A stretch of 64,000 nt of DNA from Fidelibacterota bacterium (GCA_016934035.1 JAFGTP010000040.1:124001-188000), one strand, 5' to 3'. Positions 12,652 to 49,998 are shown, counted from the first letter of the stretch. Numbers and translations are program-made. Notes: generated by a model from the sequence alone, not told the origin.

Positions 12652-14049
12652 ATGATAAATATTATAGAAAAATTTAAAATAATTTTTGATTCTGCCGGCT
12701 TTTTTACCAAAAACCCCGGCAGAACCATATTATTTTCATTTATGTCTATCATTATTTTCGGGTCTATTCTGTTGTCCCTGCCTTTTGCCACGGCAGACAA
12801 AATTCCTTTGCACTATATTGATGCTTTGTTTACTTCAACATCGGCTGTTTGTGTCACCGGCCTGATTGTGCAGGATACAGCCACCCGATTCAGTTTATTT
12901 GGAAAAATCATTATCATGGTTCTTATTCAGGCTGGGGGTCTCGGCATTATGCTCATGAGTTATTTTGCTTCTTTTATACTGAGAAAGAAGTTTTCTATCA
13001 AAGAAAAAATAACCATGTCCTATATGCTCAATGTCAATGATTTACGCAAGGTCACCAGTTCAATGGTACGGATAATACTCCTCACCTTTGTGATTGAGTT
13101 GATTGGTGCAGTTTTGCTGTATATCGATTTTTCCGGATTTTTCGGCCATGGTAAAAAAGCCCTATTCTTCTCACTTTTTCATTCTGTATCCGCTTTTTGT
13201 AATGCTGGGTTTGCCTTGTTTTCCGACAGTTTTATGCAATTCAAAGGAAATTTGAGTCTCAATCTGGTAATCACAATACTCATTATTCTGGGAGGATTGA
13301 GCTTTGGGGTGATCTTTAATGTGCTGGAAGTATTGTCGGCAAAATTAAAAAGAAAATGGTATGGGGAACACAAAATAACAAAATTATCCATCAATACCAA
13401 AATTGTATTGATTTACTCCGCCGTTTTGATTTTCTCCGGTATGCTGATATTTTACTTCTTTGAGCATCAATACATTTTGCTGGAAAATAGTATTGGCACT
13501 CAGTACATTTCATCTTTTTTTCAATCGGTAACCCTGCGAACGGCAGGATTTAATACATTGGATATCGGTAAACTCCAAATGAATACTATCCTGGTGATGG
13601 TGGTTTTCATGTTCATTGGCGGTGCTTCCGGCTCAACAGCCGGCGGTGTGAAAGTCAATACTTTTGGCCTCATCATGGCCTACATACGTACATTGCTTCA
13701 GGGAAAAACAAATCTGATTATTATGAAACAGCATATTCGAAAGCGTGTGATCAATAAAGCCTTTTTATTGGTAATCCTGGGTTTAACAGTGGTTTTTTTC
13801 GGAACATTAACATTAACCGTGACAGAAAACTTTGCACTGGAAGCCATTTTATTTGAAGTTGTTTCGGCCTTCGGTACGGTAGGCTTATCCATGGGCATTA
13901 CCTTTTATTTATCTTTGATTGGTAAAGTTGTCCTGGTAGCCATTATGTTTATCGGACGAGTTGGCTTGCTGACATTGATGTTTGCCCTGTCAGACCGTGA
14001 AAAAGCAACAGATATAAAATATCCTGAAGGAGAGATATCCATCGGATAA
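12652..14049 (+). CDS. TrkH/KtrB-family potassium uptake channel subunit
   Basis: ALFTSTSAVCVTGLIV, SAFCNAGFALF, SVTLRTAGFNTLD, GGASGSTAGGVKVNTFG P-loop-like repeats; multiple TMs. Confidence 0.95.
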   Translation: MINIIEKFKIIFDSAGFFTKNPGRTILFSFMSIIIFGSILLSLPFATADKIPLHYIDALFTSTSAVCVTGLIVQDTATRFSLFGKIIIMVLIQAGGLGIMLMSYFASFILRKKFSIKEKITMSYMLNVNDLRKVTSSMVRIILLTFVIELIGAVLLYIDFSGFFGHGKKALFFSLFHSVSAFCNAGFALFSDSFMQFKGNLSLNLVITILIILGGLSFGVIFNVLEVLSAKLKRKWYGEHKITKLSINTKIVLIYSAVLIFSGMLIFYFFEHQYILLENSIGTQYISSFFQSVTLRTAGFNTLDIGKLQMNTILVMVVFMFIGGASGSTAGGVKVNTFGLIMAYIRTLLQGKTNLIIMKQHIRKRVINKAFLLVILGLTVVFFGTLTLTVTENFALEAILFEVVSAFGTVGLSMGITFYLSLIGKVVLVAIMFIGRVGLLTLMFALSDREKATDIKYPEGEISIG

Positions 14050-18054: not shown

Positions 18055-19134
18055 TTAGGGTCTCCATCCGTTCAATAATTGATTTTGGGTATACCATTGT
18101 GCTGATTTTTTATCCAGTCCCGGACGAGTAGGGCTTTCCAATGCACCGGGTCCATAATTGTTGTATTCAAAAAAACGTGAGTCGGGTTCCAGTTCAAACC
18201 AGATTCTTTCGCCATTGCTGGCTTGTGAAGATATTTTCGCATAGCCTGCTGCACTAATATGATCGTCCATAAAGCAATGAATAAAAACAGCGCTGCCTGA
18301 AACTTGGAGATTCGCTTCCGGATGCCAGGGGCGGCCAAGACATACAGAGGCTTGCGGTACAGTTGTATCTACTTTTGTAAACCGGCAATCCTGAAATAGA
18401 AATCCATAGGGATAGCTGGCCAAAGTGCTGGGCGCTGTGATGTAGCCGGTGGTGCTTTTATTCTCGCGATTTCTGGATACAATTTCGCATTCTCTGAACA
18501 GACATTGCCCGGCGCCGAAAATAAAATCCACATGTCCCAATATCTTACATTGATAAAAATAATGTCGTCCGGCATCTCCAAAAAATGTATCCTGATAGCC
18601 TGAGATGGTGCAGTGACGGAATATTGCCCGGTCGTTGTCTTGTTCCGTCATTAGAGCAACGGCCTGGGGATTTTTTACTTTACTCGGGTCATCATCATTT
18701 TTTGCCGCATTGGCGGAATAATCAAAGCCATTTTCAATGGTCAGGTTTTCAGCATGAAAATCCGGCGCTGTGATGCGTAATGTAAAACATCCCCGGGTAC
18801 CGAGTTTTTCTCCATCGGGGCCTTCGCTGTCACCGGTTGCATCAAAGGAAATAATTGTGGATTCTCTATCTTCACCCAAAAAAGTCACCATCGGTTTATC
18901 TATAGTCAGTTTTTCGTAATATCGTCCTGTTTTGAGATAAATGGTGAACGGAGAGTTATTATCAGCAGGCACGGTTGCCAGGGCGGCTTTAATGCTTTTA
19001 AAGATCGGAGTACCATTGTTGGATTTGTCATGATCACCGGCATCGACGATTGCGTCATAAAAACCAGATTGTTCACGATTACAACTGAAAGTTAATAATA
19101 AAAACATGAATATTGTGATCACTTTTTTGTCCAT
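18055..19134 (-). CDS. Pectinesterase-family (CE8-like) lipoprotein
   Basis: Lipobox LLLTFSCNREQ; RYYEKLTIDKPMVTFLGED, ALMTEQDNDRAIFRHCTISGYQDTFFGDAGRHYFYQCKILGHVDFIFGAGQCLFRECEI, CLGRPWHPEA. Confidence 0.93.
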   Translation of the reverse strand: MDKKVITIFMFLLLTFSCNREQSGFYDAIVDAGDHDKSNNGTPIFKSIKAALATVPADNNSPFTIYLKTGRYYEKLTIDKPMVTFLGEDRESTIISFDATGDSEGPDGEKLGTRGCFTLRITAPDFHAENLTIENGFDYSANAAKNDDDPSKVKNPQAVALMTEQDNDRAIFRHCTISGYQDTFFGDAGRHYFYQCKILGHVDFIFGAGQCLFRECEIVSRNRENKSTTGYITAPSTLASYPYGFLFQDCRFTKVDTTVPQASVCLGRPWHPEANLQVSGSAVFIHCFMDDHISAAGYAKISSQASNGERIWFELEPDSRFFEYNNYGPGALESPTRPGLDKKSAQWYTQNQLLNGWRP

Positions 19135-19349: not shown

Positions 19350-19991
19350 ATGATCAATGAAAAAGCTTTGAAAAAAGTGGAACTTAAAGTGTTTAGATTG
19401 TCATCCAATGATGGTTTGTTTGATTTTTTCCTGGGGTGTTTTGTATTGATGTTTGCTGTGGCACCATTGCTCAGTTCAAGTCTGGGGGATTTTTGGAGTT
19501 CTATTGTGTTCCTTCCTTTTTGGGTCATAATTTACTTTGTCCTCCTGTTGATCAAAAAAATGGTGATCCTACCCCGAACAGGTAGAGTAAAATTTGGAGA
19601 ATCCCATAGGAAAAAGATGAGGAAATTCCATCTGATCATGTTCATTACCAATTTATTTGTGTTAATAATTGGAGCGTATTTTGTGGTAACCACCAGAAAT
19701 ATGGCAGGATGGGTCCCTGGTGCCATTTTTGGATTTGCTGTGTTGGTGCTATCCAGTGTCGCAGCTTATTTTTTTAATTACCTTCGCATTTTTATTTACG
19801 GTCTTGTCATGCTGCTGGCTTTTTTGATTGGCGAAAGGCTTTTTATCCGTTTTCAGTTTTCTCATCATGGTTACCCGGTTGCTTTCGGCATTACATCCTT
19901 TGCTATTATGATTTCTGGAATAATCCTCTTTATTCGGTTTTTAAAAAAATATCCGCTGCCTGAAATCCATTCAGAGGAGGAATTGGTTTGA
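19350..19991 (+). CDS. Predicted multi-TM membrane protein encoded with wHTH regulator
   Basis: Five or so hydrophobic helices; TTGA overlap with downstream regulator. Confidence 0.65.
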   Translation: MINEKALKKVELKVFRLSSNDGLFDFFLGCFVLMFAVAPLLSSSLGDFWSSIVFLPFWVIIYFVLLLIKKMVILPRTGRVKFGESHRKKMRKFHLIMFITNLFVLIIGAYFVVTTRNMAGWVPGAIFGFAVLVLSSVAAYFFNYLRIFIYGLVMLLAFLIGERLFIRFQFSHHGYPVAFGITSFAIMISGIILFIRFLKKYPLPEIHSEEELV

Positions 19992-20317
19992 ATAAGCCCT
20001 TCTTTGAAGAAGAAAATTTACACTTGCTGGGAGAATTGGATCCGGTGGTCCATGTGCCGGCCCGACTGATGATCATTACTTATCTATATGTTGTGGAAAG
20101 TGCCGATTATGTTTTTCTGATGCGTTTAACCGGTTTATCCTGGGGAAATTTGTATACACATATCACAAAACTCGAAAGTGCCGGATATCTTGTCATGGAA
20201 AAAACCTTCAGGGGCAAAAAGCCTGTCACCATTCTTCATCTCAGTGATCATGGTCGAGAAGTTTTTCGTAAATATAAAAAGGACATGATGAAGGTGCTGG
20301 ATGGGTTGCCGGATTAG
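19988..20317 (+). CDS. Winged-helix transcriptional regulator (MarR/ArsR-like, HTH_34 type)
   Basis: LLGELDPVVHVPARLMIITYLYVVESADYVFLMRLTGLSWGNLYTHITKLESAGYLVMEKTFRGKKPVTILHLSDHGREVF; TTG start after GGAGG. Confidence 0.85.
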   Translation: MNKPFFEEENLHLLGELDPVVHVPARLMIITYLYVVESADYVFLMRLTGLSWGNLYTHITKLESAGYLVMEKTFRGKKPVTILHLSDHGREVFRKYKKDMMKVLDGLPD

Positions 20318-20435: not shown

Positions 20436-20918
20436 CTAAGTCTTTTTTAAAAATATAACCTTATGGTCCTTTTCTCCGTAATAATCCGGTAATACAGCTA
20501 TCAGTTCGCAACCCGATTTAAGATAAAATTGCCTTGTTGGTTCATAAATTGGCCGTGATGACGTTTCAATCCAGATATTCCTGCCGCCCATCATTTTAAT
20601 ATGTTCAATTGCCATGGCCATTAATATTTTTCCGAGGCCCTTGCCCTGGTGGGATTTGTGAACGGCAATCCAATAGAGATCAAAACTATCGGCAGTACCG
20701 GGTATTTTTCCGTAAGTGGTAAAGCCAACGGGCATATTTTCGATTTCAGCAATATTAAAAATATAGCCACTTTTTTCTTCGCCTTTTTCGATATTTTCCT
20801 GGGCCAGTTCCCGGGCGATTTCCACCTCAGAATGGTAGAAAAAACCGGTTGATTCCAGGATTTCACTGACGTGATCTATATCATCCTGATTGACTTCTCG
20901 TCGAAATTTCATTTGCAT
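20436..20918 (-). CDS. GNAT-family N-acetyltransferase
   Basis: DLYWIAVHKSHQGKGLGKILMAMAIEHIKMMGGRNIWIETSS...FYLKSGCELIAVLPDYYGEKDHKVIFLKK. Confidence 0.9.
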   Translation of the reverse strand: MQMKFRREVNQDDIDHVSEILESTGFFYHSEVEIARELAQENIEKGEEKSGYIFNIAEIENMPVGFTTYGKIPGTADSFDLYWIAVHKSHQGKGLGKILMAMAIEHIKMMGGRNIWIETSSRPIYEPTRQFYLKSGCELIAVLPDYYGEKDHKVIFLKKT

Positions 20919-21880
20919 CAGTTTAAATCCTTCAAAATTTGTTTGATCATGTATTCATGATGATAACCCGCCTCATTCAGGGCTGCGACAAAGCCACTGT
21001 CATTGGAAATGCAAGGATTACCGTTGATTTCCAGTATATAGGGTTGGTTGTTGTCGTCAACCCTTAAATCCACCCTGACATAACCATGCAGGTTAAAGGA
21101 ATTCCAGCAAAGATCACAGCTCTGCAAAATCATGTTTTTCAGCAAACCATTATCATCAAGTGTTCCAAACCTTCGGTTGGTCTGTTTATATTCTTCGCTG
21201 GTTTCATCCCATTTTGCTTTGTAACCGACAACTTTGGGCTTGTCATCAAAATAGGATGAAAATATCATTTCTGCAGGAGGTAGGACCTCGTGTCCGTTTT
21301 CAGTTGCCAGTAGACTGATATTAAATTCTCGTCCCTCGATGTATTCCTCAATAAAATAATGAGAGGAAGATAATTTTTTTAGTTTTTCTACCTTAGAGGT
21401 TTCCTTTAAGGTAAAAACAGAATCCGTATCGATGCCAACTGAAGCTTCTTCCCAGATTGGCTTCACAATATAGGTTTTCTCCGGGGTTAACCGGTTAATT
21501 TCTCCAATTGCATAAAAATCAGCGGTGGGGATATGATGCAGGCGCATCATTTTTTTAGCCAATACCTTGTTGGTTGTTAAAAACAAGGCATCCAGAGGAA
21601 CGCCGGTGTAGGGGATCTTCAGGGCATTCAGAAGGGCCGGCGCGACGTATAAAAGTTCACCTTTGCCCCAGCCCGATTCCACGAGATTGAAAATAATATC
21701 AGGACTTTGGCTTTGTATTTTTTTTAAATCGGTGTAAATATCATCCCCGACAGATGCGCTTGAAACTTCGTGGCCTAATTTCTGACAGACCGCCTGAACT
21801 AAATCTCTTTGAGCCAGGACATCAATTTCATCTTCTGTGTTATTCTGAATTTTATTGTGCAGAATGATGATTTTACTCAT
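20918..21880 (-). CDS. ATP-grasp ligase, D-Ala-D-Ala ligase-like (copy 2)
   Basis: TYIVKPIWEEASVGID, YFIEEYIEGREFNISLL, YVRVDLRVDDNNQPYILEINGNPCIS. Confidence 0.88.
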   Translation of the reverse strand: MSKIIILHNKIQNNTEDEIDVLAQRDLVQAVCQKLGHEVSSASVGDDIYTDLKKIQSQSPDIIFNLVESGWGKGELLYVAPALLNALKIPYTGVPLDALFLTTNKVLAKKMMRLHHIPTADFYAIGEINRLTPEKTYIVKPIWEEASVGIDTDSVFTLKETSKVEKLKKLSSSHYFIEEYIEGREFNISLLATENGHEVLPPAEMIFSSYFDDKPKVVGYKAKWDETSEEYKQTNRRFGTLDDNGLLKNMILQSCDLCWNSFNLHGYVRVDLRVDDNNQPYILEINGNPCISNDSGFVAALNEAGYHHEYMIKQILKDLN

Positions 21881-22856
21881 AAGAAAAATTCCGTTTAATG
21901 GCCGATTTCAGAATTTCGGAGATAATATCCTGATAGGATTTACCATTTAGATAGCATAAAATGGGTAAGTCTGATGTTTCCGGATTGAGTCCGGCCAAAG
22001 GGTTGACCTCAATAAAACTCAATTTATCATAACGGTCAATTTTGACATCAACACGCCCTCCGTCAAAACAATTGAGCGCTGTCCAGGCCCCCAGGGCCAT
22101 GTTTGTGCATTCTTCCAGCAATGCTCCGGTGACTGGCCGGTACTCTACCAGGTCTTCAAAATTTTCCTTTGTATTATAGGAATATATTTGGGTCATTTCT
22201 TTTTCTTTATAAATAATTTCCATGGCGCCAGGCACATAGGCCTCTTCACCAGATCCCAATACACCGACGGTAAATTCCCGGCCGGGAAGATACTCTTCGA
22301 CGATTACCGGTTGATTGAACTTTTTTAATTTCAGGCTGCAAGCCGTCAATAATTCTTCCTGTGAATGAATGACAGAGCGTTTATCGATTCCTTTGCCGGT
22401 CCCTTCAGAAATGGGTTTGGCAAATAAAGGATATTGAAGGTTGACTTTGGCGATATCTGATGTTTTGTAAATTACCTCAAAGGCCGGTGTGTTGAGGCCA
22501 CAATCCCTTACAATTTGCTTGGCAAAAGCTTTATTTAAAGATACTCCGAGCGTCACGGGATTGGAGAATACATAAGGTATCTTAACCATATCCAGCAGCG
22601 CCGGAACAAGAGATTCACGGCCTTCGCCATATAATCCTTCTGCGATATTAAAAACCATATCCCATTTTTGTCCCTGTTGCAGCTGTTTAATTAAATTTTG
22701 TGCATTGCCAATACGAACGGTTTGATGCCCTTCGTTTCTTATGGCCTTTTCGATCCCTTCAATGGTGCTCACTTTGTCAAATTCTGCTGTTTCTTCCGGA
22801 GAATATCCGTCTTTCAAATAATCTGCTCGCAGATCGTATGTTAATCCTATGATCAT
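21873..22856 (-). CDS. ATP-grasp ligase, D-Ala-D-Ala ligase-like (copy 1)
   Basis: LFAKPISEGTGKGID, VIVEEYLPGREFTVGVLG, GGRVDVKIDRYDKLSFIEVNPLAGLNP. Confidence 0.9.
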   Translation of the reverse strand: MIIGLTYDLRADYLKDGYSPEETAEFDKVSTIEGIEKAIRNEGHQTVRIGNAQNLIKQLQQGQKWDMVFNIAEGLYGEGRESLVPALLDMVKIPYVFSNPVTLGVSLNKAFAKQIVRDCGLNTPAFEVIYKTSDIAKVNLQYPLFAKPISEGTGKGIDKRSVIHSQEELLTACSLKLKKFNQPVIVEEYLPGREFTVGVLGSGEEAYVPGAMEIIYKEKEMTQIYSYNTKENFEDLVEYRPVTGALLEECTNMALGAWTALNCFDGGRVDVKIDRYDKLSFIEVNPLAGLNPETSDLPILCYLNGKSYQDIISEILKSAIKRNFSYE

Positions 22857-24598
22857 TTTTTTTTCTTTTCCATTTTGGATGTGATGTAGCCTTCAAAAAA
22901 ATTTCGGGCATTGGTTCCCAGCGTCCTGTTTTTATATCCGCCCTCCTGGACAAATAAAACAGGGACCGGAATTCGGCCGATTTCAGTGCCATTATTTTTA
23001 AAATCACTTGCTTTTAGTGACCAGGTCCCGGTTGGGTCGCCCTTGGCCGGGTCAAAGCCCAGACTTACAATCAGGTAATCGGGTTTATGTTCCAGGATTT
23101 TTTTTATAGCCCGTTTCAGAAAAACCAAATATTCCCCTCCGGTTATGTTTTCTTTTAGTGGGAAGTTGATGTTGTAACCTTCGCCGATCCCTTCACCTTT
23201 TTCCTCTTCAAAACCGGTAAAATATGGGTAAGCAAAGGAGGGATTGCCATGAATTGAAATTGTCAGCACATCCTTGCGGGAATAGAAAATTTGTTGGTGG
23301 CCGTTTCCGTGGTGATAATCAATATCTAATATGGCCACCTTTCCATATTGCGACAGAAAATGAGCTGCTATGGATGCATTATTGAAATAACAAAAGCCGC
23401 CGAATACATCTTTTTCGGCATGGTGTCCGGGTGGGCGAACCAAGGTATAAGCGCTGTGATAACCTTCCAGTAATAATTCAGCTCCGGTCAGGGCACAGTT
23501 GACACCGGAGCGGGCTGCTAAAAACGCATTCTTATTGATCGGTGTAAATGTATCGATGCAATAATATCCAGCGAGAACGGAAAAATCTTTCGGCGGACGT
23601 GTTAGATTTCTGATGGGGAAGACATAGGGATAAATGGACTTTCCTGCAGGGATTTTGTCGCAGACGGTTTTGATATAATTAAATAACTTGGGATTATGCA
23701 CTTCGGTGATGTGTTTGTCCGGGTATCCTCTTGAAGGCCTTATTTTAAAAACCTTTAATTTTTCAATTTCCTGTAAAATGCTTTTTATGCGGATGGGTGA
23801 TTCGATATAGCCTTTTTCTTTAACATGATGAATGTCATGCATGTCATTGATGATCAGCATGATTTCATCTTTAACCGAACCGGTTTTCTGTATCGGCCTC
23901 TCTTTGTCGATGTATTTGAATTCTCTCAATCTGACAGGGTTATCAGTAATGGATTTGACAACTGTCTGAATATAATCTTCCGGACAATAATCAGGATATT
24001 TTCGTTCCAAAAGAGCTCTGATAATTTTTTTTGCTTTCAGGGCAGACAGTTGAACATCATTTCCCAGGTCATCAAATACCAGATATGGCGGGCAATCATC
24101 TTTGGGATTGACAGAGGTTTCATATTGGGTGCCGATGATGGGCCTGGCCCCGTAACGTTCATAAAAGGCCAACCGTGCTGCATTCTGTTTGAGAAGGCTT
24201 TTGTCCCTGCACAAATTTTCATCATCAGGAAGACATTCCATGAAAATTCCCAGAGAATTGAGCAGTTGGGCTTCTTCCCGGATTCTTTCGTAAACAGCGC
24301 CACCGATTCCCGAGGCAGTTTTACCCGGTTTTACCGCAATATAATCCAGAAAACAGAAATTCAAGTCCGGCAGATAAAACAGAAGGGCAAATCCTTTCAC
24401 ATTGCTCCTGCCATCTTCTGCGACAAAGAGCTGGGATGAAAACCGATATTTTAACGGATTTTTCATCTGTTCCAGAATTTCGATAATTTTTTCTTCTTTT
24501 ACTGCTGGAAAATGAATTCGCAAAATATCAAATACCTGTTGAATAACATGAATATTGGATGGATGGTAGGTATCGGAAATCTTTCGGATTCTGAACAT
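22853..24598 (-). CDS. Fusion: N-terminal GNAT-like domain + C-terminal histone-deacetylase/acetylpolyamine amidohydrolase-like domain
   Basis: GNAT-like FCFLDYIAVKPGKTASGIGGAVYERIREEA; deacetylase YTLVRPPGHHAEKDVFGGFCYFNNASIAAHFL, VAILDIDYHHGNGHQQIFY, LIVSLGFDPAKGDPTGTW, VLFVQEGGYK. Confidence 0.9.
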   Translation of the reverse strand: MFRIRKISDTYHPSNIHVIQQVFDILRIHFPAVKEEKIIEILEQMKNPLKYRFSSQLFVAEDGRSNVKGFALLFYLPDLNFCFLDYIAVKPGKTASGIGGAVYERIREEAQLLNSLGIFMECLPDDENLCRDKSLLKQNAARLAFYERYGARPIIGTQYETSVNPKDDCPPYLVFDDLGNDVQLSALKAKKIIRALLERKYPDYCPEDYIQTVVKSITDNPVRLREFKYIDKERPIQKTGSVKDEIMLIINDMHDIHHVKEKGYIESPIRIKSILQEIEKLKVFKIRPSRGYPDKHITEVHNPKLFNYIKTVCDKIPAGKSIYPYVFPIRNLTRPPKDFSVLAGYYCIDTFTPINKNAFLAARSGVNCALTGAELLLEGYHSAYTLVRPPGHHAEKDVFGGFCYFNNASIAAHFLSQYGKVAILDIDYHHGNGHQQIFYSRKDVLTISIHGNPSFAYPYFTGFEEEKGEGIGEGYNINFPLKENITGGEYLVFLKRAIKKILEHKPDYLIVSLGFDPAKGDPTGTWSLKASDFKNNGTEIGRIPVPVLFVQEGGYKNRTLGTNARNFFEGYITSKMEKKKK

Positions 24599-24608
24599 AA
24601 AAGTTTTT

Positions 24609-25868
24609 TTATCTGATGGGATCGTAATATTTGAACAGGTTACCTTCGTAATTTTTCATGAGGATGTAATCACCTTCACGGCCCTGATAATATTCAGGCA
24701 GCAAGGGTATTTTTCCTCCACCCCCGGGTGTGTCGATGACATAATGAGGAATAGCATAACCACTTGTAAACCCCCTCAGTCCCTTAATAATTTCCAAACC
24801 CTTGGAAATTGGCGTTCGAAAGTGGGCCGAACCGGGAATTGGGTCGCATTGGTAAAGATAATAAGGCCGTATTCTGATTTTTAATAATCGGTGCATTAAT
24901 TCTTTGATCGTTACGACATCATCGTTGACTCCCTGCAGCAACACGGTTTGACTGCCCATCACGATTCCCGCGTCGGCCAGTCGATTGACAGCTTCGACAA
25001 CTTCAGGCGTAATTTCATCCGGATGGGTGCAATGAATGCTCATAAATAGAGGGTGGTATTTTTTTAACATCTTCACGAGACCATTGGTGATCCGCTGAGG
25101 GAGAACCATGGGCACTTTTGTGCCGATTCTGATGATTTCAATATGAGGAATGGCCCGCAGTGAAGAGAGTAGAAATTCAATATGAGTTTCCGGTAAAGTC
25201 AGTGGATCACCGCCTGACACAACAACATCCCTAACCGCTGGATTGTTTCTGATGTATTCAATCGATTTTTCCCAGGCCTTGATGCCAAAATGCTTTTTAT
25301 CCTTAAGAACCATGTGCGAACGGGTACAATAGCGACAATAAGTGGCGCAAAATCCGGTTGATACCATTAATACTCTGTCCGGATAGCGATGAATCAGATT
25401 ATTTACCGGGCACATGGCTTCTTCATGAAGAGGGTCTGATTCTTCCCCTGGTGAAATAAGGAGTTCCCGCATATCAGGAATTACCGTTCTGCTTAGAGCA
25501 GACTTGATGGATTTTCCTGACAGCAAACTGGCATAATATGGGGTAATTCTTAAAGGAAGTTTTCTTGTTTTTGACAGAAAATCAATATCCTCAATACTGC
25601 TGATATCAATAATCTCAGAAAGTTTTTTTATACTGGTATAACTTTTTTGGATTTGCCACCGCCAACTGTTCCACTGTTTGTCTGTTGCATCCGGGAAATA
25701 AGTTTCTCTGAATTTTTGAGTGTCTGGGCTAACAATTTTAAAGTCTGAATTTGGGATTTCTGTTCTGCTAAAGGGTTTTTCTTCAGTGCTGGCTGTTTCC
25801 AACACGGCTTCTTCTAATGAAAGGTCCTTTTGTAAAGGAGGCTCTGAATTCTGATCTGGATTGTTCAT
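24609..25868 (-). CDS. KamA-family radical SAM lysine 2,3-aminomutase
   Basis: STGFCATYCRYCTRSHMV (CxxxCxxC), VVSGGDPLTLP, RIGTKVPMVLPQRIT, YLYQCDPIPGSAHFRTPI, IDTPGGGGKIPLLP. Confidence 0.92.
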   Translation of the reverse strand: MNNPDQNSEPPLQKDLSLEEAVLETASTEEKPFSRTEIPNSDFKIVSPDTQKFRETYFPDATDKQWNSWRWQIQKSYTSIKKLSEIIDISSIEDIDFLSKTRKLPLRITPYYASLLSGKSIKSALSRTVIPDMRELLISPGEESDPLHEEAMCPVNNLIHRYPDRVLMVSTGFCATYCRYCTRSHMVLKDKKHFGIKAWEKSIEYIRNNPAVRDVVVSGGDPLTLPETHIEFLLSSLRAIPHIEIIRIGTKVPMVLPQRITNGLVKMLKKYHPLFMSIHCTHPDEITPEVVEAVNRLADAGIVMGSQTVLLQGVNDDVVTIKELMHRLLKIRIRPYYLYQCDPIPGSAHFRTPISKGLEIIKGLRGFTSGYAIPHYVIDTPGGGGKIPLLPEYYQGREGDYILMKNYEGNLFKYYDPIR

Positions 25869-26384
25869 TATTGAATTATACTTCTTTCTACTTTTTTTAA
25901 TCTGAATGTTTGTTGTAAATAATTGAATGTCAACTCATTTCGAATGTTAAATTTTTGAAATGAATTATGCTGAAATTTACTGTTGGCAAATTTAAAATCA
26001 AGGGATAAAAATATAAAATTTTTGGTCCAAATCAGGTTGAAAATCAGTTGAAAAAGCTGTGGGAGTATTATTGTTTTTTTGAAACAAAATATTGTGCTAA
26101 TTGCCAATTAATCAGCGCAATATAAGAATTGACCATTTCCGGAATATTGGCCTGATATGAGTCTATCGGTGGCCGCTGTTCACCCACTGAATTTTCCAGG
26201 ACCCGGGACGGTCTTCAGCCGGCAGATATACTGTGCTAGTATTTTCAAGATTTTGGAAAATATTTTCGAAGACACAGCCAGTGAATGATTGCAAACCAAA
26301 ATAATTTTAAAGAAGGGGAACATACCTGAATTCAAGGCTTTATTCCCTGCTGTTGATTTTTGGCTCAATGTGGGAAGGGCCCAT

Positions 26385-30553: not shown

Positions 30554-31876
30554 TTATTCCTTCGTAAAGGTGAATTGTCCGCCACCTTGTTTCAATATCA
30601 TGGTTTTATCGGCCGGATTAAATTCTAATACAATTCCTGCCTGGTCGAATGTGAATTGGTCTTTTTCGGTTGCTTCAAGGGTAAATGAGGATTGGCCTGT
30701 GGCCTGTGCCAACAGCTTGTCTCCTGCTTTGGTAATGGTCATTTTCAAAGCAATTTGCTCAGAAGCATAAACGCCTAAATATTTGTCTAAATCTTCCGGG
30801 TTCAAATTCAATGTTGTGAAAGATGGAATTTCCCAGGGCTTGTCATAAACAGCACTTAGAACAGCAATGGAAATATTATTATTATTGTAGTTTGTACCGT
30901 TTGAAATTAAAGCATAGGAAATTTTATCGTCCGGAAAATGAGAATATACGGAACTAAAACCATCAATCCCGCCTGTGTGTCCGTAGCTGGTCCAATTGTA
31001 GAAAGGAAATTGAAACAAACCCATTCCAAAACCATCTTTTGTGGTTTTCATGATCTCAAGACTTTCAGGTTTTAACAGTTTCCCACCAAACAGAGCATCG
31101 GCAAATTTTGTCAAGTCTGTTGCCGTGGAAATAATTCCGCCGGCACCTAATGGAATAGAGAAGTCTGTTTCGCTTTCTAATTTCCAGGTCCCTGCAAAGG
31201 TATAAGATTTACATTCGTTTTTAGCGGTATTGATTTTTCCGAAAACATCCGTGCTTGTCAATCCGAGAGGGTGAACAATGGACTCTCGTAACAGGTCAGC
31301 ATAGGATTTTGCATAAATCTTTTCCAGAATGTAAGTCAACAGCACAAAATTTGAGTTGCTGTATTCTGCTTTGCGATCTGGCTTAAAATCGCTGCCCCCT
31401 TTGGCAATAATCTCCACCATTTCATTTTCTGTTTTCGGCTGTGTGTTCCAGGTCAGATAGTCCTTGTCGTTCGTGAAATTGTGAATTCCGCTGCGATGGC
31501 CCAGTAAATGTTTTATCCTTATTTTATTGGCATTTTTGATGGCCGGAAACCAGTGATCAATCGTTTGGTTTAAATCTAATTTTTGTTCTTCAACGGCTTT
31601 TAAAATCAAAACCGTCGTGAAGGACTTGGTAATGGAACCAATTCTGTATTTGGAGTTCTCATTAGCTTTGATATTGTTCTCAAGGTCGGAAAAACCTACA
31701 GTTTGGGTATAAATGATTTGTCCGTTTTTGGAGACGGCAATACTTCCCATAAATTTGTTGTTTGCTTCCAGCGTCCTGAAATACATGTCCAGTTTTGCTT
31801 TGTCAATATTGGTCTGAGCTGGCCCGATTTGAATTAAGATCAAAACAAGTAATGTTGTGAAAAGGATCTTTTTCAT
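30554..31876 (-). CDS. Serine hydrolase, class C beta-lactamase-like
   Basis: Likely start MKKILFTTLLVLILIQIGPAQ; YRIGSITKSFTTVLI (SxxK), YSNSNFVLL (YxN), YGHTGGIDGFSS (HxG). Confidence 0.92.
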   Translation of the reverse strand: MKKILFTTLLVLILIQIGPAQTNIDKAKLDMYFRTLEANNKFMGSIAVSKNGQIIYTQTVGFSDLENNIKANENSKYRIGSITKSFTTVLILKAVEEQKLDLNQTIDHWFPAIKNANKIRIKHLLGHRSGIHNFTNDKDYLTWNTQPKTENEMVEIIAKGGSDFKPDRKAEYSNSNFVLLTYILEKIYAKSYADLLRESIVHPLGLTSTDVFGKINTAKNECKSYTFAGTWKLESETDFSIPLGAGGIISTATDLTKFADALFGGKLLKPESLEIMKTTKDGFGMGLFQFPFYNWTSYGHTGGIDGFSSVYSHFPDDKISYALISNGTNYNNNNISIAVLSAVYDKPWEIPSFTTLNLNPEDLDKYLGVYASEQIALKMTITKAGDKLLAQATGQSSFTLEATEKDQFTFDQAGIVLEFNPADKTMILKQGGGQFTFTKE

Positions 31877-31951
31877 TTTTTCGATTCTCCTATTCTTGGC
31901 GTTTCGGCCTGTCATCCGGAAATAGCGCATAATGGTCGACGAGTAAAATTT

Positions 31952-35711: not shown

Positions 35712-38225
35712 TTATTGTATTTGAATGGTCACTTTTTCCCTGATGTCAACAGAAGAGGAACCAACCAGAATTTCAAATTCACCGGCTTCAACTTCCCAAT
35801 CATGTTTTTCTGGATTGTAAAAAGCAAAAGCGTTTTTATTCAATTCGAATGTGATCGTTTTTTCTTCACCTTGTTTCAACATCACTTTGTCAAAGGCTTT
35901 CAGTTCTTTGATGGGGCGGGGAAGTGAACATTCTTTGTCTGAAACATAAAGTTGCACAGCTTCGGCTCCGTCCATTTTTCCGGTATTTTTCATTTTTACA
36001 GATACTGTTACAGTTTCGTCCATTGAATAGGATTTTTTATCGGTAGCGATTCCCGAATAATCAAAAGTCGTGTAAGAGAGGCCGAAACCAAAGGGAAACC
36101 TGGGCTCTGTAGCGGCTTTGTCCCAATACCGGTAGCCCATGAAAATCCCCTCCTGGTAAAAGACTTTGAGGTCTTCATCGTGGTCAAAGTAGGAGTTGTA
36201 GCAGGGGTTTTCTTCCATGGTTTTTGCGAAGGATGCTGGTAGTTTTCCGCTGGGATTGGTCAGACCAAAAAGGATTTCCGCAGCAGCCAGATTACCTTCC
36301 TGGCCGGGATACCAGGCCAGCAAAAGGGCGTCGGCTTTGTCGATCCAGGAGGCCATTTCCACATTGCCACCGGCATTGAGCACAACGATGATATTGTCAT
36401 TGACTTTTGCGATTTTATTGATGAATTCGCTCTGATTGTATGGCATTTCAAAAGTGCGGTCAAAGCCTTCACTTTCTTTACCGGGATTGAAACCAACCGC
36501 CAAAATAACAACATCGGCCTCGTGCGCAGCTGCCAGGGCTTTTTCGCTGTACTCTTCCGGCTTCATTTCCACAATGGCTTCAGCCAAACCCAGTTGGATC
36601 ACAGCACCACCGCCGTTCTGATAAAATTGGAGTTCAAGATTGTATTCCTGGCCGGCATTGAGGAATTGTTCCTTTTTGCCTACTGTCGGCCCCTGGTCGC
36701 GCCACATGGAGACAATTTCAATGCCGTCAAGAAAAATTTTGTAGCCGTCATCGCCTTTGCCGGCAAGGGTGTAGGCCCCGGATTTTTCCGGAGTGAAGCA
36801 GCAAGTGAACCTGGCTGAGTAATCTTCGCTGGGAATGGCCTCTTCGTCCCACATATCACTGTCTGTGAGGTCCAGTTTTTCATAGGCTGTGGACAAAATA
36901 ATATCACCTTCCAGTTTTTTTCCCAGGTAATAGTCAGCCTTGACACCGGGGACTTTTTGGCTGTTTTCATAATAGTAAAATTTGTTCTCATCAAAAATAC
37001 CTTCCGGTAGAGTTGCCCCGGTGAATATTCCTTTTTCAAAAACCACCGCAACATTTTCTCCGGCAACTTTCTCTACTGCTTCTTTTAATGACATCGGATG
37101 CAGTGGATCGGTGTACGAACTGCCGCCGCCGCCGGATACGACAGGATTGCCGTTGGGACCAATAAGGGCTATTTTTTTTAATTTTTCTTTTTGTAAGGGT
37201 AAGGTATTGTCAGCATTTTTCAGAAGGACCATTCCACCGCGGGCGGCTTCCAGTGCTGTTTTTCTGGCGAATTTCTCATCCAGGACGTAACCTTTGCTGA
37301 TGTCCGGGTTTTCAAAATATCCAAATTCGACATAGGTTTTCAGGATTCGGCGGATTTTGTCGTCGATGACGGATTCGTCCAAAGCGCCACTTTCAATAGC
37401 CGGGATCAGAGTTTCTTTGTTCATCATGGCGCCGGAAGGCATTTCCAGGTCAAGGCCCCCTTTGGCGCAGGCCAGTCCGTCATAGGTGGAAACCCAGTCG
37501 GACATGATAAAGCCGTCAAAGCCCCATTTTTCTTTGAGAATTTCGTTGTTGAGGTAATGGTGTTCAGAAGCATGAATGCCATTGATCAGATTGTAGGATG
37601 TCATAATCGCGCCGACATTGCCTTCCTGGACAGTTGCCTTGAAGGCCGGCAGATAGATTTCATGCAGGGTCCGTTCATTCATGTCGGAAGAGCAATGATG
37701 GCGGTTGAATTCCTGGTTGTTGGCGGCGTAATGTTTGGCGCAGGCGACCACTCCCTCTTTCTGCATGCCGAGGGTGTATTCCTTGGCCATTTGCCCGGCT
37801 AGATAGGGGTCTTCTCCCAGATATTCGAAATTTCTTCCGCAAAGGGGCATACGATAAATATTCATTGCCGGGCCCAGCATGACATGACAATTTTGTGCGC
37901 GGGATTCGCTGCCAATGGCCTTGCCCACCTGACCGGCTAATTTTCTGTCAAAAGAGGCTGCCAGCGTAATCGATGCCGGATAGGCGGTGGATTTGCCAAA
38001 ATTTCTCACACCCACTGGGCCGTCTGCAAAATGGATTTCCGGAATGCCCAGCCGTTCAACCGGCATAATGTTGAATTGTTTATAGCCGCCGATAAATTCG
38101 ATTTTTTCTTCCAGAGTCATGGCGCTGATTTTAGCTTCTATATCCACTTTGGCGGTCTGGGTGCTGCTGCAGGACAATAAAAAACCGAACACTAGGTTGA
38201 TGATGACCAAAAATTTGCTTCTCAT
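35712..38225 (-). CDS. Glycoside hydrolase family 3 beta-glucosidase-type with PA14 insertion and Fn3-like C-terminus, lipoprotein-like
   Basis: FGFLLSCSS lipobox; ACAKHYAANNQEFNRHH, GFIMSDW, FTPEKSGAYTLAGKGDDGYKIFLDG (PA14), C-terminal VQLYVSD. Confidence 0.95.
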   Translation of the reverse strand: MRSKFLVIINLVFGFLLSCSSTQTAKVDIEAKISAMTLEEKIEFIGGYKQFNIMPVERLGIPEIHFADGPVGVRNFGKSTAYPASITLAASFDRKLAGQVGKAIGSESRAQNCHVMLGPAMNIYRMPLCGRNFEYLGEDPYLAGQMAKEYTLGMQKEGVVACAKHYAANNQEFNRHHCSSDMNERTLHEIYLPAFKATVQEGNVGAIMTSYNLINGIHASEHHYLNNEILKEKWGFDGFIMSDWVSTYDGLACAKGGLDLEMPSGAMMNKETLIPAIESGALDESVIDDKIRRILKTYVEFGYFENPDISKGYVLDEKFARKTALEAARGGMVLLKNADNTLPLQKEKLKKIALIGPNGNPVVSGGGGSSYTDPLHPMSLKEAVEKVAGENVAVVFEKGIFTGATLPEGIFDENKFYYYENSQKVPGVKADYYLGKKLEGDIILSTAYEKLDLTDSDMWDEEAIPSEDYSARFTCCFTPEKSGAYTLAGKGDDGYKIFLDGIEIVSMWRDQGPTVGKKEQFLNAGQEYNLELQFYQNGGGAVIQLGLAEAIVEMKPEEYSEKALAAAHEADVVILAVGFNPGKESEGFDRTFEMPYNQSEFINKIAKVNDNIIVVLNAGGNVEMASWIDKADALLLAWYPGQEGNLAAAEILFGLTNPSGKLPASFAKTMEENPCYNSYFDHDEDLKVFYQEGIFMGYRYWDKAATEPRFPFGFGLSYTTFDYSGIATDKKSYSMDETVTVSVKMKNTGKMDGAEAVQLYVSDKECSLPRPIKELKAFDKVMLKQGEEKTITFELNKNAFAFYNPEKHDWEVEAGEFEILVGSSSVDIREKVTIQIQ

Positions 38226-38506
38226 TGTTTCTCCTTTATTCTTTTGATAGATGGTATAATTTTTCCCTCATGTGATTTTTTAGGATAATAATATATTGGG
38301 AGTGATGATGAATACTAAATATATGCCAGACCAACGGACTTAAAACCATGGCTATTTGTCGTCGATGAAAAAAATAATTCAGGTAAAAGGGAGATTATTT
38401 CGGCTGATTTTTTTATTGATTTAATAAACAATTTATCAAATTGATAAAACTTCTGTCCGTAAATTGGCTATTGATTAACTTGGGAATTTACCCTAATTTT
38501 TTTTGA

Positions 38507-40318
38507 ATGGAAAAAAGAATTTTATACCCATTAATTACCTGCCTCTATGATAAAGTAGTGGGGCCCCAAAAGGCAGAGGGACATAATCTGGAATTCTGGC
38601 GGGAGCGGATTTATGGGGCGGTTTCAATCACCCAGATCTTGCTGGGATTTATTGCATTAATTGTCAGTATTTTAGCATGCATACCCGGGCGAATGGTTTT
38701 TATTGCCCTCTTTGATGGGATGATTTACATTTCCCTGCTTCTGGTTCTTTTTAATCGTCGAATACCGCTTGAAATCAAGACTTCGTTATTGTGCTTTTTT
38801 TTATATCTGATCGGTGTCGTCCTCCTGCTATTACTGGGAAAAATCGGGGCCGGCTATGCCTGGCTATTCAGTTTTCCGGTTATTGCCGGTATTTTAAAGG
38901 GTTTAAAAGCAGGTGTGGTGTCTGTCATGATTAATGCGGTGACGCTGATTATGATCGGTGTTTTCCTGATCCACCTGGGCTTGTTTCCAAACCTGCCCAT
39001 CGAGGAGTATGATATTCTGGCCTGGATGACGGTATCGGTGAATTTTGTTCTTCTGAATGCGCTTGTCACCGTGGCGATTGGCGTTATTCTGCGAGGATTA
39101 AAAATTTCGATGCAGGAGCAGCAAAAGCTGGCGGCCAGTCTGACCCAAAAAAAGGAGCAACTGCAGAAATCAAACCTCAAATTGCGGCAGGAAATCAAAA
39201 AACGGATACAGACGGAACTGGATTTACGGGAAACCATCGGTCTGGCTGAGTCCGCCAATATTGTGAAGTCTGAATTTTTATCCAATGTCAGCCATGAAAT
39301 TCGCACGCCATTGAATGCAATTATGGGGTTTTCCGGTCTTTTGACCGGTTCGATTGAGGGCGATACGACCCGGGAGTATGTCCGGTTGATACAGGCTGCA
39401 GGCCATGATCTGCTGACGCTGATCAACAAGATATTGGATGTTTCCAGGGTTGAATCGGAGAAAATGACCATTAAAAAGGATATTGTTGACATCAAAAAAA
39501 TATATTCGGATTTAAAAATTCTTTTTGAGAAACAAATTGAGGATAAAGGGCTGCACTCAGAGTTTGTGCTCCAGGATAATGGAATTGATTTTATTATACA
39601 TGATGAAATCCGGATCAAACAGGTGGTAATGAATGTCATCGAAAATGCCGTTAAATTTACCCAGGCAGGCGAAATCGGTGTTTTCTTTCACCTGGTTGAA
39701 AATAAAGATAGAGGTAAAGTAGACCTGATCATTGAAGTCCGGGACACAGGCATCGGCATTCCTGAAAGTGATTTTGAAAATATCTTTGAAACTTTCTGGC
39801 AAAAAGACGGCAAAGCAACCCGGGAATATGAAGGTACCGGAATCGGATTGTCGCTGGCACGCAAACTGACCCGGCTGATGAATGGAGAAATCCAGGTAGA
39901 AAGCACTGTCGGCCAGGGGAGTCTGTTTCGCATCCTTTTTCAGGACCTGGAAAGGCCCTCTGAAGAATTACTGAAACAAAAAAATATTTCAAAATATTCG
40001 ATGAAAATCAGCAAAGAAGTTGATTCAGATAGTCCGGTGAAAAACGGAAAAGCCCGGGAGCAGATAGTCCATATTTTACAAACTGATATCCTACCTCAGA
40101 TTCAGGATTTGGAAGGCAATGCCATCATCAATGACATTCTGCAGTTTTCCCATTCACTGCACAATTTGAGTCAGGAATACGATGATAAAATTTTGAGAGA
40201 ACTGGCCCGGAAATTAATCAGCAGTTCGCTGACTTATGATATGCAAAAAATCATGACAGGGCTTCAGGAATTACGGCAATATGCCCGGCAACTGGCCTCG
40301 GAAAAACCGGCTGTTTAG
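38507..40318 (+). CDS. Membrane sensor histidine kinase (HisKA + HATPase_c)
   Basis: Six-ish N-terminal TMs, coiled coil, FLSNVSHEIRTPLNAIMGFSGLL (H-box), VMNVIENAVKFT (N-box), VRDTGIGI, GTGIGLSLARKL. Confidence 0.95.
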   Translation: MEKRILYPLITCLYDKVVGPQKAEGHNLEFWRERIYGAVSITQILLGFIALIVSILACIPGRMVFIALFDGMIYISLLLVLFNRRIPLEIKTSLLCFFLYLIGVVLLLLLGKIGAGYAWLFSFPVIAGILKGLKAGVVSVMINAVTLIMIGVFLIHLGLFPNLPIEEYDILAWMTVSVNFVLLNALVTVAIGVILRGLKISMQEQQKLAASLTQKKEQLQKSNLKLRQEIKKRIQTELDLRETIGLAESANIVKSEFLSNVSHEIRTPLNAIMGFSGLLTGSIEGDTTREYVRLIQAAGHDLLTLINKILDVSRVESEKMTIKKDIVDIKKIYSDLKILFEKQIEDKGLHSEFVLQDNGIDFIIHDEIRIKQVVMNVIENAVKFTQAGEIGVFFHLVENKDRGKVDLIIEVRDTGIGIPESDFENIFETFWQKDGKATREYEGTGIGLSLARKLTRLMNGEIQVESTVGQGSLFRILFQDLERPSEELLKQKNISKYSMKISKEVDSDSPVKNGKAREQIVHILQTDILPQIQDLEGNAIINDILQFSHSLHNLSQEYDDKILRELARKLISSSLTYDMQKIMTGLQELRQYARQLASEKPAV

Positions 40319-40350
40319 TTATTATTCAATCCATGAATTTCGGGCGCCAT

Positions 40351-40515
40351 TCAGTCCTGTAATTTCCCCTCACCATATTTGAACTCAAAGAATATTCCCG
40401 GTTTCGGGTTGCGCTCCAGATTGTCGATCTTCTAAACAATGGGCCTGTACGTGGGAGCCGTGGCGGACAGAAGAAACTGTGTTGCAAGGAGAATGATAAG
40501 GAAAAATTTTTGCAT
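40351..40515 (-). pseudogene. Small signal-peptide ORF interrupted by an in-frame TAG
   Basis: MQKFFLIILLATQFLLSATAPTYRPIV*KIDNLERNPKPGIFFEFKYGEGKLQD*; TAG at 40434-40432. Confidence 0.4.
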
Positions 40516-40525
40516 CCTGTCTCCC

Positions 40526-40573
40526 AAAAACTGGCCTCTTTCTCCACGATGACCATGAGAGAAGAAAGAGGCC
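40526..40573 (-). terminator. Terminator downstream of 40581 gene
   Basis: GGCCTCTTTCT...AGAAAGAGGCC then AGTTTTTG on minus strand. Confidence 0.7.
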
Positions 40574-40580
40574 TTTGGTC

Positions 40581-42056
40581 CTATTTATCGACTTCCCTGA
40601 TGATGGACCACTCATGACCGCAGTTTTTACAGACCCGCAGGTCTTTGAATCGGTCTGTGATTTTTGTTTCTGTTTTTACAGAGGTGCCGACATGTTCATC
40701 ACCTCTGTAGGTATCTGTGGTGGTGGTTTGGGTTCGAGTGCTGCGACTCAGCCAGATGCTTCCAATGCCTAACCCGCTCCAGTAATTACAATTGGGGCAG
40801 CGATTGTATTCCAGGGTCTTCATCATGTAAGCAATGACCAGTGACCCAATGATCGGTAAAAAGAGAATAGCCAGGAAGGGTTCCAGGTAAAAATAGGCGT
40901 CATGATAAATCAGAAACAGGAACCATAGATGGCCCAGAAGCACTCCCAATATTCCCTGAATCAGCACCAAACTGCTGGTGGATACTTTTTTGTTCAGGCT
41001 CCTGATGGATACAAACAATGTCACTGCCACAATGGGAAGCATGGTATAAACCAGTCCGATGCCAAGGACTAAAATGATTAAAATAATGTAAAAGGGCCAA
41101 TACAGAATTCCGGGAAGGATTTTGTCAATGGGGCCGTCTTCGCCAAAGAATTTATCCAGACCTGTCAGAAGGTTGGGCAGATTGCGATAGGTATTTCCAA
41201 AACCGAAATTTCTGACCATTTTTGATAAGGGCAGCCAGGCAGCTATACGTCCCTGGGGACTGTCGGCCAAATCGACGTGGATGATTTTCTCATCTTTTAA
41301 TTCAAAATAAACCACACGTCCGGCGCTTTTTCCTCTATACAGTTCAATATTTTCAAAATACCAGGCTTCATTATTGCCGGTGGCCATTTTTGCTACTTTT
41401 CCTGACGGGAAACCAAATTTATTCATGAGCCAGCCGGAATCTTTGCCAGCGGCTTTTTTTTGCAGTATTTCAAGGGTGTACAGCCAGAGGTTGCCTCCCC
41501 GATAACGGGCCTCGGATTGAGATTCGTCCAGTTTTCCGAACGGGATCAAATAATCAACCAGTGTCCAGCCGGTTTTTCCATCAGGTAATTTGATTTCCGC
41601 CCAGTGGCGTTCGCTCAAAATCATATCCCGAAGAACTGTCACCTGTTGTTCGTCATAAGACCGATCCATTTCCAGAATAATTTTATCGTCTGCATTGTAG
41701 GGATTGTAGACTGCTTCGGAATAGAGAGCGCGGGAGCCCATTTTTTTCCGGTACCCGATTTGTGCGGTTTTGCCAACGGGCATATATTTTTTCTTGACCC
41801 AGCCAATGTCACCATTTTTCTTTTTGATTTGAAAGGCCAGAAATTCCTCGGCGATTACTTCTACGGTTTCACCGGCCCGGACTGTGCCAATGACGGCGTT
41901 TCTGACTTCCAAAGCTGCGTTTTCTTTAAATGTTGCTTTTACACCTTTAATGTCATCAAGGGTTTTTTCGTTGTTGCATCTACTCAGTCCAATCAAAAGA
42001 ATGGTACTGATTAAAAATAAATTTTGACGCATTTTTTTACTCCTTTTATCAAACAC
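40581..42056 (-). CDS. Lipoprotein-like protein with SH3-like repeats, TM segments and C-terminal zinc-ribbon cysteines
   Basis: LIGLSRCNN; two WVKKKYMPVG / WTLVDYLIPFG SH3b-like units; CPNCNYWSG...CKNCGHEW. Confidence 0.65.
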   Translation of the reverse strand: MFDKRSKKMRQNLFLISTILLIGLSRCNNEKTLDDIKGVKATFKENAALEVRNAVIGTVRAGETVEVIAEEFLAFQIKKKNGDIGWVKKKYMPVGKTAQIGYRKKMGSRALYSEAVYNPYNADDKIILEMDRSYDEQQVTVLRDMILSERHWAEIKLPDGKTGWTLVDYLIPFGKLDESQSEARYRGGNLWLYTLEILQKKAAGKDSGWLMNKFGFPSGKVAKMATGNNEAWYFENIELYRGKSAGRVVYFELKDEKIIHVDLADSPQGRIAAWLPLSKMVRNFGFGNTYRNLPNLLTGLDKFFGEDGPIDKILPGILYWPFYIILIILVLGIGLVYTMLPIVAVTLFVSIRSLNKKVSTSSLVLIQGILGVLLGHLWFLFLIYHDAYFYLEPFLAILFLPIIGSLVIAYMMKTLEYNRCPNCNYWSGLGIGSIWLSRSTRTQTTTTDTYRGDEHVGTSVKTETKITDRFKDLRVCKNCGHEWSIIREVDK

Positions 42057-42174
42057 AAACTTAGACTTTAGTGAAAAAAAAATTATGAAACAACGTTAAT
42101 TTAAATTGAAATTAAAGTCTTTTATGTCACTCAGGTTAAATAGCTGAAATTTTTTGGGTTTAACACCCTCACCC

Positions 42175-44619: not shown

Positions 44620-44693
44620 ATTTTTATTCTCCTGATAGTTTTAATTGATCTTTTGGTTTTATTTAGATTGTTTTATGTCATTGTGAGGGGTAT

Positions 44694-46385: not shown

Positions 46386-46446
46386 TTGCTGACCTATTTT
46401 TTTTTGTTGTCCGTCATGGCTGTCCTGGAAGCTTTGGCAGGGGCAT

Positions 46447-48837: not shown

Positions 48838-48868
48838 TTAATTCCTCCGAGATTATTTTTTTAGGCAT

Positions 48869-48954
48869 AGGTCGCAAAGTTCGCAGATAAGACGCAGAGT
48901 TTATAAACAAACTTTTTTCTGAATTACCTTTGCGTTCTCTTCTCACTTCGCGTT
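48869..48954. repeat. Imperfect inverted GCAAAG-rich intergenic repeat
   Basis: ggtcgcaaagttcgcagataagacgcagag (left) and ctttgcgttctcttctcacttcgcg (right, inverted). Confidence 0.55.
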
Positions 48955-48958
48955 GAAT

Positions 48959-49954: not shown

Positions 49955-49998
49955 TTGTTCCTATTCATTCAAAGTGTGATTTTTTATGGCTAAAAAAA

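Follow-up and report, generated by a model that had tools for sequence, protein, structure and literature searches.

Five closely packed minus-strand genes in a 64,000-nucleotide stretch of DNA from a Fidelibacterota bacterium (GCA_016934035.1 JAFGTP010000040.1:124001-188000; the whole stretch is hereafter called the window) raise the question of whether a lysine 2,3-aminomutase-like enzyme (KamA), a GNAT-deacetylase fusion protein, two D-Ala-D-Ala-ligase-like ATP-grasp enzymes (AG1 and AG2) and a GNAT N-acetyltransferase act together in one pathway, and what this pathway would make. Judged from sequence and gene neighbourhood, the cassette is a real and widely distributed bacterial pathway, akin to the AblA/AblB and N-acetylglutaminylglutamine amide (NAGGN) systems as an acetylated lysine-derived small-molecule route: its active sites are intact, the co-occurrence of its genes is conserved, and its identity is separate from that of AblA/AblB. 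We give an even chance to the operon encoding a cytoplasmic N-acetylated β-lysine peptide whose likeliest role is that of an intracellular stress or compatible solute; β-lysine peptide chemistry, taken by itself, is rather probable. The features of the locus are as follows.

24609-25868, minus strand: KamA, the operon's first gene (419 aa), a radical S-adenosylmethionine (SAM)/pyridoxal phosphate (PLP) enzyme, lysine-2,3-aminomutase-like
22853-24598, minus strand: fusion of an N-terminal GNAT and a Zn-dependent deacetylase resembling acetylpolyamine amidohydrolase (ApaH) (581 aa)
21873-22856, minus strand: AG1, D-Ala-D-Ala-ligase-like ATP-grasp ligase (327 aa)
20918-21880, minus strand: AG2, D-Ala-D-Ala-ligase-like ATP-grasp enzyme, more divergent than AG1 (320 aa)
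20436-20918, minus strand: terminal GNAT N-acetyltransferase, the last gene (160 aa)
25869-26384, minus strand: A+T-rich, 516 bp upstream of KamA, presumed promoter region (inferred only)

The five open reading frames (ORFs) lie head to tail between positions 20436 and 25868, as described in the original prediction. The 11-bp gap given there corresponds to 10 bases that separate the KamA gene from the fusion gene, the 1-8-bp overlaps were confirmed as 4, 8 and 1 bp, and the five family assignments were all upheld by Pfam and NCBIfam models.

Family membership and active sites of the encoded enzymes

KamA matched the KamA family model TIGR00238 with 323 bits (cut-off 199) and aligned to the lysine 2,3-aminomutase (LAM) of C. 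subterminale (2A5H) with an E-value of 1.7e-117. All residues expected of a lysine 2,3-aminomutase (CxxxCxxC, the PLP lysine, both aspartates and the arginine) are present: the SAM-cluster cysteines 174, 178 and 181, the PLP lysine K386 (LAM Lys337), and D342, D379 and R183 (LAM D293, D330 and R134) were invariant in 32 of 32 cassette KamAs. In LAM the two aspartates D293 and D330 hold the side-chain amine of lysine, and the conservation of this site therefore speaks for lysine or a closely related diamino acid as substrate and against glutamate. Scores below the respective cut-offs were obtained with the models for glutamate 2,3-aminomutase (398 vs. 650 bits), arginine 2,3-aminomutase (354 vs. 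600 bits) and EpmB (251 vs. 369 bits), the last of which also belongs to the KamA family. The enzyme is not AblA either, because it stayed below the cut-off of TIGR03820 (434.6 vs. 525.4 bits), ends at LAM residue 369 without the C-terminal Zn domain (LAM_C matched over positions 1-57 of 127), has D, S, N, T or E among its homologues in place of the Zn-partner Cys268 of LAM, and belongs to a clade of 71 cassette KamAs apart from AblA (support 100/99). The predicted role of KamA as a β-lysine maker is supported by the complete lysine site; the enzyme lies outside the AblA/AblB pathway, which the genome holds separately.

Two further KamA lineages were encountered outside the main clade, in similarly built clusters of KamA, two ATP-grasps and a GNAT (loci L047, L170, L173 and L178-L180; and L041, L043, L045, L049 and L073). 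One lineage is found in Chloroflexota- and Deltaproteobacteria-labelled records and the other in the window's order and a Desulfuromonadales-labelled record; one of the two has the gene order AG1-AG2-GNAT-KamA, and the other often has a MarC gene inside the cluster.

Both ligases matched the Pfam model Dala_Dala_lig_C (AG1 89.8 bits, AG2 60.8 bits) and remained below the Ddl/Van cut-off of 243 bits (149 and 101 bits, respectively). The ATP-grasp metal and catalytic residues R268, D270, E283 and N285 are invariant in AG1, as are R269, D271, N286 and N288 in AG2, where E284 is nearly so; the N-terminal motifs are peculiar to each ligase (AEFDxxxT and FNIAEG in AG1, FNLxE in AG2). An AlphaFold2 model of AG2 (pLDDT 93) had only D-Ala-D-Ala and D-Ala-D-lactate ligases as nearest PDB folds, at approximately 20% identity. 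By these features, with the fold modelled for AG2 only, both proteins qualify as predicted ATP-grasp carboxylate-amine ligases, in agreement with the proposal of two enzymes of the dipeptide-ligase type. Since every complete cassette contains two distinct ligases, two amide bonds would be formed.

The terminal GNAT matched Acetyltransf_1 (47.7 bits) and the deposited structure 2R7H (E-value 6.5e-30 by sequence and 3.3e-57 by profile). Neither GNAT of the window matched the AblB model (TIGR03827, cut-off 205.1 bits), and only 2 of 28 GNAT homologues did so weakly (best E-value 5.8e-6). The N-terminal GNAT half of the window's fusion protein is below the Pfam cut-off, while GNAT models matched 24-27 of 36 homologues; its predicted model has a GNAT-like secondary structure, and a search of solved structures with this half gave no significant match. 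The other half of the fusion matched Hist_deacetyl with 243.5 bits and has the full catalytic set of an acetylpolyamine amidohydrolase (the Zn-binding Asp-His-Asp, a His pair and a Tyr), with H392, H393, D427, H429, D516 and Y555 invariant in 81 of 81 sequences. An acetyl/deacetyl pair, as originally proposed, is present, and the catalytic residues checked across the operon are all intact at the sequence level. As a separate observation, locus L168:7593-8585 holds a deacetylase-like ORF of 330 aa, too short for a GNAT half, inside the operon of that locus; the same genome also carries a full fusion protein (L036).

In both sequence and fold the deacetylase domain is nearest to acetylpolyamine amidohydrolases (model TM-score 0.87-0.90 to ApaH). 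Glu106 of M. ramosa ApaH contacts the polyamine, and a promiscuous ApaH has His at this position (PMC11532494). In the fusion homologues the corresponding position is Ser, Pro or Ala, an Arg occurs two residues further on in 53 of 81, the position of ApaH residue 117 is an invariant Phe, and the segment near position 106 reads as a near-invariant C-x-DTFTP. Because of the lost glutamate and the C-x-DTFTP segment, the substrate appears to differ from a polyamine, and the deacetylase probably acts on an amino acid or peptide.

Recurrence of the cassette across genomes

The scan with the fusion protein, with one genome per species, yielded at least 573 related stretches, the best 80 loci of which were examined; phylum names follow the record titles, and the genomes are mostly metagenome-assembled genomes (MAGs). 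Within a few kb of these best 80 loci, several of which lie on contigs that end short, an ATP-grasp homologue was found in 46, KamA in 40 and all five genes in 34. Three main gene orders were observed: KamA-fusion-AG1-AG2-GNAT (as in the window), KamA-AG1-AG2-GNAT-fusion and KamA-AG1-AG2-fusion-GNAT. Where the fusion gene was unlinked, AG1 was encoded elsewhere in the genome in 29 of 32 cases (E-value ≤ 1e-30), adjoined by KamA at nearly all of the AG1 loci examined and by AG2 and GNAT at most; two of the three genomes without AG1 have a KamA.

The core KamA-AG1-AG2-GNAT was detected in Bacteroidota, Desulfobacterota, Pseudomonadota, Chloroflexota, Ignavibacteriota, Planctomycetota and others. 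Carriers available in culture include Desulfofustis glycolicus DSM 9705 (L066) and Prolixibacter denitrificans DSM 27267 (L024 and L160). Among 60 core loci, some of them incomplete at their ends, KamA was present at 56, GNAT at 50 and all four genes at 46. In a sample of 197 Bacteroidales genomes, 29 were AG1-positive, among them all 7 that encode the fusion (hypergeometric p 8e-7, with genomes counted as independent); of 245 genomes of the window's phylum, 18 were AG1-positive, and these included the 2 that encode the fusion. AG1-positive genomes devoid of the fusion usually keep the KamA-AG1-AG2-GNAT neighbourhood, and the core is therefore regarded as four genes with the fusion as an optional fifth. 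The predicted five-gene operon holds as a conserved system, reduced to a core of four, and the question raised with it, whether its families co-occur across phyla, was answered in the affirmative by the neighbourhood search. Pairwise distances of the genes are correlated as well (KamA against each partner, rho 0.46-0.65; Mantel test, 0 of 300 permutations as high). Its recurrence across phyla shows that the five genes did not come to lie together by chance. All genes of the window's operon have their closest relatives, at 61-77% identity, in cassettes from Bacteroidota or of mixed phyla, which, together with the few carriers in the host phylum, suggests that the cassette was acquired there by horizontal transfer.

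Proposed product, possible osmotic role and rival explanations

In the pathway that we propose, KamA would convert L-lysine to L-β-lysine. AG1 and AG2, as Ddl-type enzymes, would each use ATP to turn a carboxylate into an acyl phosphate and would link β-lysine with further free amino acids through two amide bonds made one after the other, resulting in a di- or tripeptide of which the terminal GNAT would cap an amine with acetyl. The fusion, where present, would add or remove acetyl, either to protect and deprotect while the peptide is being assembled or as a switch for solute turnover. The product would be an intracellular, reversibly acetylated peptide relative of Nε-acetyl-β-lysine; lysine as the substrate, the ligation partners, the order of steps, the amine that is acetylated and the osmotic role are the putative elements of this scheme. 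Precedents exist in the AblA/AblB osmolyte pathway (cited in PMC9337991), in NAGGN, an N-acetylated dipeptide that the GNAT-type enzyme Ngg produces as an osmolyte (PMC8070244), and in aerobactin synthesis, where the N6 of lysine is blocked by acetyl prior to peptide condensation (discussed in PMC2922099). The more specific idea that an acetylated β-lysine tripeptide constitutes a new class of cytoplasmic β-peptide, with its acetylation set by one acetyltransferase/deacetylase fusion and its genes moving across phyla as a stress-tolerance cassette, is tentative and somewhat doubtful.

A physiological role was not part of the original prediction; the gene context points modestly to osmoadaptation. 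The host genome also holds a canonical ablA-sodium/solute symporter-ablB cluster with MarC beyond it (L106:1386-4983, G000:C36), in which AblA (766 bits) and AblB (332 bits) are both above the NCBIfam cut-offs; the operon as a plain AblA/AblB system was ruled out by the presence of this genuine pair. Three genomes from the window's phylum have ablA-ablB directly after the core (L143:4524-10562, L144:1293-7418 and L145:1567-7604), each stretch carrying two different KamA enzymes. Within the window's phylum, AblB was found in 8 of 18 AG1-positive vs. 20 of 227 AG1-negative genomes, a p of 2e-4 that treats related genomes as independent. MscS-type channel genes lie at most three genes away in 7 of 140 loci, a count both small and post hoc; in one case (L033:2313-4997) such a gene is located 25 bp upstream of a stand-alone fusion gene on the same strand. 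MarC genes, seen beside ablB in the host genome, also occur inside three operons. Further observations weigh against an osmotic role in addition to the two limits just given: most loci have no osmotic neighbour gene, some carriers are freshwater or digester MAGs by title, no osmotic riboswitch was detected at 34 cassette loci with Rfam (which returned tRNAs and one unrelated thiamine pyrophosphate riboswitch), and AG1 and AblB were never found together in Bacteroidales (0 seen vs. 1 expected, not significant). We rate the osmotic role of the cassette at somewhat less than an even chance.

Among the alternatives, a secreted antibiotic or signal is unlikely. Here the β-lysine peptide would be comparable to bacilysin or dapdiamide, with the GNAT for self-protection and the deacetylase as activator. 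Ddl-like ligases do make dipeptide antibiotics, the patchy spread of the cassette (the fusion count in the window's phylum is an example) fits horizontal spread, and a few clusters have DMT-type membrane genes right next to them. Against this, exporter, self-resistance and regulator genes were not recurrent among the neighbour families of the cassette, which makes secretion less likely, and a fixed enzyme set over many phyla resembles primary or stress metabolism. The modification of a macromolecule (protein, tRNA or cell wall) by β-lysine or a β-lysyl peptide, as done by EpmA/EpmB on EF-P, would draw on the kinship of KamA with EpmB and on the ability of ATP-grasps and GNATs to modify macromolecules, and relatives of D-Ala-D-Ala ligase function in cell-wall synthesis. 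It is nevertheless quite improbable given that KamA scores lower with EpmB than with AblA in addition to missing the EpmB cut-off, that efp, mur and tRNA-modification genes were not seen among the recurring neighbour families, and that the substrates of Ddl-type ligases are free amino acids.

We see still less probability in polyamine conjugation or detoxification, in which the ligases would couple polyamines with amino acids, and acetylpolyamines would be deacetylated by the fusion. The kinship of the deacetylase domain speaks for it, but the residues at and around ApaH positions 106 and 117 do not, and polyamine genes were not recurrent in the neighbourhood. The original prediction of assembly of a β-lysine or polyamine conjugate or peptide with protection and deprotection is accordingly borne out with regard to the intact enzymes and conserved operon, and its polyamine option has lost weight, since the deacetylase lacks the acidic residue with which M. 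ramosa ApaH binds polyamines. Highly improbable, finally, is a redundant Nε-acetyl-β-lysine pathway, in which KamA and a GNAT would duplicate AblA/AblB and the ligases would be unrelated passengers: the lysine site is kept in KamA and some clusters adjoin ablAB, but the genome already has both enzymes, AG1 and AG2 recur as regularly as KamA does, and the window's GNATs do not match AblB.

Genomic surroundings and comparison with known systems

The next upstream gene is on the same strand as the operon, beyond the 516 bp of A+T-rich DNA, and the downstream neighbour (19350-20317, plus strand) is convergent with it. Promoter and terminator scans of the operon region gave no signal above shuffles; an Rfam search revealed no riboswitch in the whole window and no match in the upstream region. 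A TrkH potassium-uptake gene (12652-14049) is located approximately 6 kb past the operon end and is not taken as evidence for an osmotic role because it is too distant. The region is flanked by a pectinesterase-family protein (18055-19134) on one side and a serine beta-lactamase-family protein (30554-31930) on the other. Positions 35712-51402 constitute a cellulose/β-glucan utilisation cluster with a glycoside hydrolase family 3 (GH3) protein with PA14, a MASE11 histidine kinase, a sugar MFS transporter, and a GH9 cellulase between two GH94 phosphorylases.

No prior description of the cluster was found in the searchable open literature, a scope that does not include the survey of amidoligases published in 2009 by Iyer and colleagues (10.1039/b917682a), and the supposition that it is unpublished holds within that scope. 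If the proposed β-lysine peptide pathway is correct, it would represent a new natural-product or osmolyte class in organisms frequently found in anoxic and marine sediments, would give a physiological role to the uncharacterised AG1, AG2, GNAT-deacetylase fusion and 2R7H GNAT families, and would supply enzymes dedicated to the formation of amide bonds of β-amino acids. The union of acetyltransferase and deacetylase in a single polypeptide would moreover be an unusual regulatory arrangement.

At the level of individual proteins, AG1 and AG2 share the fold and the ATP/acyl-phosphate residues of Ddl/Van ligases but differ in their N-terminal motifs, in scores below every Ddl/Van cut-off and, for AG2, in the low identity. 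The deacetylase shares with ApaH (cluster 4 of the classical deacylases) the fold, Zn ligands, His pair and the RPPGHH and EGGY motifs, and differs by the N-terminal GNAT, the lost polyamine-contacting Glu and the C-x-DTFTP segment. The terminal GNAT is of one family with 2R7H, a deposited structure whose name, putative D-alanine N-acetyltransferase, is a putative label; no functional study of it was found, the one paper naming 2R7H being concerned with another protein. At the level of pathways, the cassette resembles AsnO/Ngg, which makes the N-acetylated dipeptide osmolyte NAGGN from amino acids, in combining acetylation with a non-ribosomal peptide bond, as far as can be told from its genes. 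It differs in having an aminomutase and two separate Ddl-like ligases and no asparagine-synthase-type amidation, and the combination of an AsnO-type amidotransferase with Ngg was not found among the cassette genes. With AblA/AblB it has in common a KamA-type aminomutase and a GNAT, and it adjoins ablAB in the three genomes described above; it is set apart by a KamA of a separate clade without the Zn domain, a GNAT of another family, the addition of two peptide ligases and a deacetylase, and its coexistence with AblAB in the host genome.

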